Part shown: piece by piece, positions 11,429 through 13,872 of the stretch
How positions within the stretch are numbered: the stretch's first letter is position 1
Layout of the letters: each line of letters opens with the position of its first letter
Source of the DNA: Thermoleophilia bacterium
Lineage (GTDB): Bacteria > Actinomycetota > Thermoleophilia > BMS3ABIN01
Assembly: GCA_030650885.1 (NCBI GenBank)
Contig: JAUSDE010000114.1
Location: 1-34,299, forward strand
Length of the DNA: 34,299 nucleotides
Direction: 5' to 3'
The notes under the pieces: model-generated
What the model was told of the DNA's origin: nothing
The model's database searches: none
The model's input: only the letters and a program-made list of their open reading frames with translations
Translations under genes and position numbers: made by a program

Positions 11429-11665
11429 GGCGATGACCTTCGATTTGTGGTGAATATCGGTTGTGGTCTCCAGTGGTTCCCTGCCTTTTCATAATCTGCT
11501 GTAAGCCAGTCGGGAAAGTATACTTTTTGTTATGTGATCAAGCAAAACTCTACGCTGCTACTGTTTACGCTCCTGCTTATATACGCGAAAGTAGCGGGGA
11601 GGGCAGGTCGGGCATCAAGCATCTCGATGAATGACCGATAGCGCCTTTTACGACCATGGGGCATG

Positions 11666-11709
11666 CTTATGTTTACATAAGTTGAAAATGATGACAAATG
11701 TGGTATTAT
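11666..11709 (+). promoter_or_regulatory. promoter with adjacent operator-like palindrome
   Basis: CTTATGT-TT-ACATAAG perfect inverted repeat (11666-11681), then -35 TTGAAA (11682-11687), 16-nt spacer, extended -10 TGG-TATTAT (hexamer 11704-11709). Confidence 0.65.
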
Positions 11710-11792
11710 TTAAAATAACTGATATATCAACCAACAAGATGCACTCCGCGTTTCAGGGAATCCACGATCAGCAAGGGGGCAGTACCATAAGC

Positions 11793-11981
11793 ATGAAGAC
11801 AAAAAGGTTTGAGTATGTACGTCCGCGCCTGGTAAAGCTGGGCAACATCAAGGAGATCACCTGCAACTTTCCCGGATGGCAGTGCAGCTACGGTGGCGGC
11901 GAGCGTGAAGATGAGCACGATGGTGGTCACGGTGGAGGCCATGGCGGCGGCCACGGCGGCGGCCACGGCGGTCACCACTGA
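11793..11981 (+). CDS. putative RiPP precursor: lasso-type leader motif with His/Gly-repeat tail, 62 aa
   Basis: MKTKRFEYVRPRLVKLGNIKEITCNFPGWQCSYGGGEREDEHDGGHGGGHGGGHGGGHGGHH; leader fits YxxPxLxxxGxxxxxT. Own promoter and terminator. Confidence 0.75.
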   Translation: MKTKRFEYVRPRLVKLGNIKEITCNFPGWQCSYGGGEREDEHDGGHGGGHGGGHGGGHGGHH

Positions 11982-12005: not shown

Positions 12006-12035
12006 AGGGTGCCCCTATAGGCGCCCTCTTTGTTT
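12006..12035 (+). terminator. intrinsic terminator after the lasso-leader peptide gene
   Basis: AGGGTGCC-CCTATA-GGCGCCCT followed by CTTTGTTT. Confidence 0.75.
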
Positions 12036-12210: not shown

Positions 12211-13872
12211 ATGAGAATTATCAAGCCATCGCTCGCCGCCGCCCTTATCGCAATCGTGATCATTGTTACTCTCACCGCCGGATCCGTCTCCAGCGCCAGC
12301 GCTACCGTTCCTGCCGGCTTCAAGCTGGGCGTGGCCCTCGAGTATCCATCAACCCTGGCGAGTTTTGAGTCGTCTGTCGGCCATAAGGCTGACATGTTCC
12401 TCTGGTACCAGTCGATCAGCGAAGATCTGGACACCGCTACCCTCGGCCCAATCGCCCAGGGCGGCCGCGCCATCCAGCTTGCGTGGGAGCCGTGGAATTT
12501 CGGTGCGCCTGACCTGGTCAATCAACCGGCATATCAGCTTCGCGACATCACTGCTGGCAATTGGGACGCGGATATTCACAGGTGGGCGCGCCAGATCAAG
12601 GCGTTCGGTTACCCGGTCGTATTCCGTCCCATGTGTGAGATGAATGGAGACTGGACCAGCTGGGGCGGCACCGTCAACGGCAATGTACCGGCAGATTACA
12701 TCCCCGCGTGGCGGCACATACACGATATCTTTGTCGCGGAAGGGGCGACCAACGCCGCGTTCCTCTGGTCGCCGAACGTGGAGGGCGACCTGGAGAAGGC
12801 CACCTCGACGTTCAGCAGATACTATCCCGGCGACGCCTATGTGGACTATGTGGGCATGGACGGATACAACTGGGGAAGGATGTATACGACCCCTGAGTGG
12901 ACTTCTTCATGGCAGTCGTTCACGGAAGTCTTCCGCTACAGCTATGACGCCTTCACCGCCAGGACCGGCAAGCCTGTATTGGTTTCCGAAACGGCCACCA
13001 CCGAGCTCGGTGGAGACAAGGCGGCCTGGATAACCGACGCCTTTGCCCAGTTGCCGGTGAGGTTTCCCCGCATCGTCGGCCTGACCTGGTTCAATTACAA
13101 CAAGGAGACCGACTGGCGCGTGAGCAGTTCCGCCGCCAGCCTGCAGGCGTTCAAAACCGCGGTGGCCGTTGCGCCGGCGCCGGTTCCCGATCCGGCGCCG
13201 ACTCCCGATCCTGCACCTGTACCAGACCCGGCGCCCGCACCTGATCCAGTACCCCCGCCGGCACCCGCGCCCGATACGGTCGCTCCGGCAGTCAGCATAA
13301 CTTCTCCAGTCTCGGGAACGGTCCTGACACGTGGCACAGTTAATGTGGCTGTCGCCGCCAGCGACAACGTGGGAGTCACGCGCGTGGAACTCTATCTTGG
13401 GACCAGGCTGCTGGGCGCGGATACAGCTTCGCCTTATAACTTCTCATTCAGCACCAAAGGGCTTGTCCGGGGAACCTATACGCTCAAGGCGAAAGCTTTC
13501 GACGCCGCCGGTAATGTATCTCAGACCCAGATCCAGGTGACGGTTCCGCGGAGCAGCAAGCCGCGACTGAGCCTGACGAGTAACTCAGCCTACTGGGCCA
13601 GCTTCAGCGATTTCACCGCCAGGAAGCTGTCGGTCTGGTTCACGCTGCAGAACGGCGTCGGCGATGCTGCTGAGAGCACACAGGTCGTCAGCGCCTCTGG
13701 AACTGGCGGGACTGCCAACGCGACACCGCTCGCTCTTGATCTTGGCAGTGTCGCTCCGAGCGGCTCTACCGATTTCATGTTGATTTACACTGTGCCCGCG
13801 GGTGTCTCCAGATTCAGGACAGACATCCAGGTCGGCGCCCAGGATGAGGAAGGCAATTCCTACGTTTATTAA
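12211..13872 (+). CDS. secreted GH26-like beta-mannanase-type glycosidase with Pro/Ala linker, Ig-like domain and C-terminal domain
   Basis: Signal peptide; FRPMCEMNGDWTSWGG; FLWSPN; VLVSETATTELGG; GLTWFNYNKETDWRV; (PDPAP)n linker; Ig-like ITSPVSGTVLTRGTVNVAVAASDNVGVTRVELYLG. Confidence 0.8.
   Translation: MRIIKPSLAAALIAIVIIVTLTAGSVSSASATVPAGFKLGVALEYPSTLASFESSVGHKADMFLWYQSISEDLDTATLGPIAQGGRAIQLAWEPWNFGAPDLVNQPAYQLRDITAGNWDADIHRWARQIKAFGYPVVFRPMCEMNGDWTSWGGTVNGNVPADYIPAWRHIHDIFVAEGATNAAFLWSPNVEGDLEKATSTFSRYYPGDAYVDYVGMDGYNWGRMYTTPEWTSSWQSFTEVFRYSYDAFTARTGKPVLVSETATTELGGDKAAWITDAFAQLPVRFPRIVGLTWFNYNKETDWRVSSSAASLQAFKTAVAVAPAPVPDPAPTPDPAPVPDPAPAPDPVPPPAPAPDTVAPAVSITSPVSGTVLTRGTVNVAVAASDNVGVTRVELYLGTRLLGADTASPYNFSFSTKGLVRGTYTLKAKAFDAAGNVSQTQIQVTVPRSSKPRLSLTSNSAYWASFSDFTARKLSVWFTLQNGVGDAAESTQVVSASGTGGTANATPLALDLGSVAPSGSTDFMLIYTVPAGVSRFRTDIQVGAQDEEGNSYVY

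Follow-up and report, generated by a model that had tools for sequence, protein, structure and literature searches.

What does a lasso-type leader do on a short peptide whose core is not a normal lasso core and whose surroundings hold no lasso maturation gene? The question arises in the window, the whole stretch of 34,299 nucleotides analysed here (contig JAUSDE010000114.1 of a Thermoleophilia bacterium), where a 62-residue peptide is encoded on the forward strand at 11793-11981, with the same coordinates and sequence as in the initial annotation. That annotation called the peptide an orphan, which is correct locally but not genome-wide: about nine relatives with the same leader are dispersed over other contigs of its own genome. 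We favour, as the probable though not the certain reading, that these peptides form a dispersed, multi-copy family of RiPP-type precursors, here called 'WxCS peptides', matured in trans by a single-copy operon on another contig, C57.

A genuine gene with a lasso-type leader

The reading frame is preceded by a sigma-70-like promoter (TTGAAA, a 16-nucleotide spacer and TATTAT; 11682..11709), whose hexamers and spacer are also present in the ortholog of genome G005, and is followed by an intrinsic terminator hairpin (12006..12027, fold z = -3.2), both on the forward strand. With a predicted promoter and terminator of its own, the peptide gene looks like a separate transcription unit. Comparison with the G005 ortholog gives a dN of 0.20 and a dS of 1.02, and the resulting dN/dS of about 0.2 indicates that purifying selection acts on the gene. 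A chance reading frame is ruled out by these signals, by the selection estimate and by homologs in all 19 genomes searched within the same family (2-10 per genome), so that sequence comparison confirms a genuine gene.

The start codon is less certain, by two codons. A Shine-Dalgarno-like stretch, AAGGGGG, and two candidate starts, ATA (11787) and ATG (11793), lie within 11773..11795 on the forward strand; the ATG is replaced by ACG in the G005 ortholog, whereas the ATA, 7 nucleotides behind the conserved GGGGG, is common to both sequences. A non-standard start at this ATA, which has ideal Shine-Dalgarno spacing, is therefore possible. An in-frame start further upstream, at 11631, is unlikely since it lies 5' of the conserved promoter.

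The leader (M1-C24; 11793..11864, forward strand) carries the motif Y8-P11-L13-G17-N18-T23. Its sequence, YVRPRLVKLGNIKEIT, has the lasso-leader spacing Y1-P4-L6-G10-T16 and matches, as first proposed, every position of the consensus YxxPxLxxxGxxxxxT, with Thr at -2. Residues 8-23 score 15.7 bits with the NCBIfam model of lasso RiPP leaders, NF033521, whose cutoff of 19 they just miss. Conservation of the motif among homologs, on which the lasso-leader assignment had been made to depend, is found for Y, P, L and T but not for G: their spacing is kept, and in most relatives G10 is D or E. Over 97 genes, Y is present in 93, L6 in 91 and T16 in 96; because the search pattern that collected this set demanded P4, W, C and S, the conservation of these four residues was not counted as evidence. 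A set of 29 homologs picked solely by similarity to the window peptide has W-[QNT]-C-S in 27.

Two subtypes can be told apart behind the leader. Type A peptides follow the pattern TFECPxWQCSVxVPPPP, and the one that we tested against NF033521 gave no match. Type B comprises the window peptide and 13 others, whose leaders mostly have G10 and N11 and whose tails consist of 63-93% H, D, G, S, N or E; His is present in 11 of the 14 tails, the other three being Asp- or Ser/Asp-rich. In the window peptide, the predicted core begins with N-F-P-G-W-Q-C-S (11865..11888), which includes the common core motif W-x-C-S, and continues into a His/Gly/acidic tail that runs to the stop codon (11889..11981, both features on the forward strand) and holds 7 His and 16 Gly among 30 residues. 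Metal chelation by this tail is plausible, judging from the recurrence of His/Asp/Gly-rich tails in those 11 type B members.

The same recurrence could suggest that these are small, unprocessed His/Asp-rich metal-binding proteins whose N-terminus only resembles a lasso leader. We think this quite unlikely: the leader is the best-conserved part of the peptides, it is shared with type A members that have no metal-binding tail, its Y/P/L/T spacing is kept, and the genes co-occur with those of an RRE and a B2 peptidase (see below).

A core that does not fit a lasso ring

Is the peptide a lasso peptide at all? Core positions 7-9 are C, S, Y in the window and C, S, V in type A, in agreement with the initial observation that Asp and Glu are missing there. 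In addition, no AsnB homolog scored above the cutoff of the lasso cyclase model (NF033535) in any of 60 genomes, and the homologs of the peptide's own genome, on contigs C47 and C22, fit models of ordinary asparagine synthase or EPS amidotransferase better. These acceptor-residue and cyclase tests rule out a lasso peptide of recognised type. A true lasso peptide closed by an unrecognised cyclase would account for the lasso-type leader and for the presence of an RRE and B2; given the missing acid in both type A and the window peptide, the distance from the leader Thr to W-x-C-S, which is 5 residues or, in a few type B members, 2, and the failure of every homolog in the 60 genomes to reach the cyclase cutoff, we regard it as extremely improbable.

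The AsnB pair on C47 was considered as a cyclase and rejected, being of the ordinary or EPS type. It belongs to what looks like a polysaccharide locus (L030, 1985-8983), which comprises two AsnB-like amidotransferases, a flippase and a B12-binding radical SAM gene and adjoins a protein carrying the C-terminal domain described below.

The conserved element of the core is W-x-C-S. The Cys pair pointed out initially (CNFPGWQC) is present in the window peptide as C24/C31 but is not conserved in the subtype: the G005 ortholog, the nearest one, has Arg in place of C24. By the lasso rule of Thr at -2, the B2 cleavage site would lie behind C24. The Ser of W-x-C-S is the sole invariant Ser.

Candidate maturation genes on other contigs

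Whole-genome searches for RRE, B2 and cyclase matched other contigs alone, so the window contains none of these genes, as had been noted. The proposal that maturation genes lie elsewhere in the genome holds for an RRE, a B2 peptidase and an HprK-like kinase, but not for a lasso cyclase. Contig C57 carries in one row genes for an HprK-like kinase, a PqqD-type RRE (68.5 bits), a lasso B2 (NF033537, 39.1 bits for a cutoff of 33) and a DUF2079 protein, and thus the RRE (B1) and B2 pair of lasso peptide pathways on a contig different from that of the precursor. Across the family this locus adjoins hemW and has glycosyltransferases alongside, often with a methyltransferase, a SPASM radical SAM protein or NTP_transf_5. 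The B2 protein retains a catalytic-type Cys (KCLLRSL) and His (GHSW), and the kinase its P-loop, GxSGSGKS, and DD. The RRE is found in 19/19 family genomes and B2 in 16/19; no B2 was found in G006, G014 and G018, which are 78, 69 and 92% complete.

With RRE, B2 and kinase present in the peptide's own genome and throughout the family, the trans maturation suggested at the outset appears likely. Prochlorosins are matured on the same principle, many dispersed precursors being served by one maturation set; the likeness to WxCS peptides ends with this logic, as enzymes and leader differ. The precursor genes do not adjoin the RRE/B2 operon, and what ties them to it is leader type and co-occurrence.

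In the mechanism that we infer, the discrete PqqD-type RRE would bind the YxxPxL leader and hand it over to B2, the lasso-type Cys peptidase, for a cut just behind the conserved Thr (T-x). The HprK-like kinase of the operon would then probably phosphorylate the core, most likely on the Ser of W-x-C-S, this being the only invariant one. As there is no cyclase, the product would remain linear; it would probably be exported and act at the cell surface, beside or with the secreted proteins described below. In the window member, the type B His/Asp/Gly tail would confer a capacity to bind metal.

Several observations speak against this model. Ser3, the residue phosphorylated by HprK-like kinases in the known systems Bsf and LPP, corresponds here to Cys or to a variable residue, and the invariant Ser lies further in; precursors and operon are unlinked; B2 has the gaps mentioned above; most type B genes other than that of the window have no CTD surface-protein neighbour; no exporter for the peptides was identified; and there is a second RRE cassette, on contig C122.

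This cassette (L032, 5679-8620) comprises an HprK-like kinase, an RRE, a SPASM radical SAM protein and an archaeal-type signal peptidase. It resembles an LPP cluster with an added radical SAM enzyme and adjoins a beta-propeller protein with the C-terminal domain described below. A search for an LPP-like precursor near it and in C57 found none. The cassette could be the real processing system, alone or in addition to C57. Were it to mature the peptides, its radical SAM enzyme might modify W-x-C, for example by a Trp-Cys or Cys-alpha-carbon thioether link, and the two-residue spacing of the invariant Trp and Cys suits such a cross-link; many relatives also have a SPASM radical SAM gene close to their RRE/B2 operon. 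We nevertheless hold this to be rather unlikely, the second RRE being missing in roughly half of the peptide-bearing genomes of the family (such as G003, G004, G005, G009, G013 and G016), whereas the first RRE and B2 are nearly universal. Maturation by the C57 operon remains our preferred reading.

A second HprK-like paralogue, of about 347 residues with intact P-loop and DD, was also observed (L011, L063, L071 and L076), where it adjoins type A peptide genes and genes for proteins with the C-terminal domain or lies between them.

Association with secreted surface proteins

The window peptide gene precedes, as does its ortholog in G005, the gene for a secreted surface protein with GH26-like and Big_7 domains (12211..13872, forward strand). 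The C-terminal domain of this protein (CTD; residues 448-553, 13552-13869, forward strand) represents a lineage-specific family of about 107 residues, present in 11-39 copies in each of the 19 family genomes and in 0/41 genomes sampled elsewhere in the class.

A strong association with this domain is seen for type A. Upstream DNA was long enough for this comparison at 82 type A genes, and 63 of them immediately follow a gene on the same strand that encodes a secreted CTD protein, with 95-180 nucleotides from the stop codon of that gene to the Trp codon of the peptide. A random point would be expected within 300 nucleotides behind a CTD gene on the same strand in about 0.2% of cases (calculated for G005, with 39 copies in 2.4 Mb). 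This linkage of type A genes to secreted CTD proteins is new. A CTD neighbour is missing at 14 type A genes, most of which represent a single orthologous locus, and at 6 of 9 type B genes.

CTDs are borne by diverse secreted proteins (GH26, beta-propeller, FG-GAP, rhodanese and EB_dh) and are absent from Pfam. The structure model of the domain is an Ig-like sandwich (pLDDT 95). A structure search with this model found no close PDB relative (best E 1.5e-3); among the weak matches are adaptin-ear domains whose structures were determined together with short peptides. A function of the CTD as a sorting or attachment domain is possible.

Could the peptides simply be subunits or ligands of the CTD proteins, with a leader for recognition and no RiPP chemistry on the core? 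The position of the 63 type A genes, the restriction of both families to the same lineage, the Ig-like fold and the adaptin-ear neighbours all agree with this. We find it very doubtful, as the fold match is weak, the type A and type B genes without a CTD neighbour do not fit, and the 34 CTD proteins of the genome are matched by only about 9 peptides, a ratio that derives from search results. A broader version of the trans-maturation model, in which each of many dispersed precursors that depend on a common RRE/B2/kinase set has as its partner a secreted enzyme or structural protein with a CTD, and the linear modified peptide is the ligand, tag or anchor of that protein, the His-rich member adding metal binding, can be put forward only tentatively.

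Distribution of the family

No peptide homolog turned up in the 41 genomes searched that belong to the class but not to this family. Across the phylum, a profile search of 397 genomes found full-length or core-covering members confined to the family's 8 sampled genomes, one isolated weak match of 19 residues outside it (G227), and matches in another family, f12, that cover the leader alone. A DNA pattern scan of GTDB genomes returned Thermoleophilia, Gaiellales and 'Actinomycetes' MAGs and two entries without a taxon in their title; matches in Nocardia, Ruminococcus, Bacteroidaceae, Elusimicrobia, Pseudomonas and other taxa lack the leader and were dismissed as chance. Based on these sequence searches, the short peptides are a previously unnamed family in one lineage of mostly subsurface actinobacteria, and our literature search yielded no publication about peptides from this lineage (BMS3Abin01).

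The f12 peptides are tandem orphans with the same leader and short Gly1 cores (L243:1340-1608 and L244:20-780; cores TRGEDPTSEPL, TKGNGPGPSEQL and TKGDIILPSGEVG). In L243 their neighbourhood includes a flippase and a radical SAM gene, and B2 was found in 2 of 4 f12 genomes.

Relationship to known systems

Leader removal and phosphorylation assisted by an RRE have been demonstrated for the phosphorylated lasso peptides of the Bsf subfamily (PMC10368454) and for the cyclase-less linear polyphosphorylated peptides, or LPP, which are reported as restricted to Bacillota (Popov et al. 2026, Nat Commun; PMC13381572). The Bsf and paeninodin types share with WxCS peptides the RRE (B1), B2, the HprK-like kinase and a leader YxxPxL...T; here, in contrast, there is no cyclase and no ring-closing acid, the precursors are unlinked to the operon and the Ser is not at core position 3.

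LPP are the closest known kind. Like WxCS peptides, they have no macrolactam cyclase, a discrete RRE, an HprK-like kinase and, as in several relatives here, NTP_transf_5 in a glycosyltransferase-rich setting. The LPP leader, YxxPxVLxHQxIxFETxxS, with Ser at core 3 and the precursor inside the cluster (PMC13381572), has in common with type A the pattern YxxPx[V/L]xxH...T; Y, P, V/L, H (in type A), I/L and T are shared, whereas FE and the Ser are missing here. The two differ in peptidase, a lasso-type Cys protease B2 replacing the signal-peptidase-like (SpI-like) LppS of LPP (in the present genome a signal peptidase is confined to the C122 cassette, the main operon having B2). They differ also in the placement of the precursors, dispersed and multi-copy instead of in-cluster, in the W-x-C-S core without Ser3, in the CTD surface-protein partners and in taxon, Actinomycetota. 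The WxCS family is therefore filed as LPP-like: it would work like LPP combined with lasso leader processing, and not as a lasso peptide. The possibility of a new RiPP class, raised initially, was a reasonable one, but the term is too strong now that a cyclase-less relative has been published.

If this reading is true, cyclase-less lasso-leader RiPP chemistry reaches beyond Bacillota to mostly subsurface actinobacteria, with precursors that occur as dispersed single genes and are invisible to cluster-based genome mining. The link of the peptides to particular secreted proteins would offer a testable route to the biological role of such peptides.
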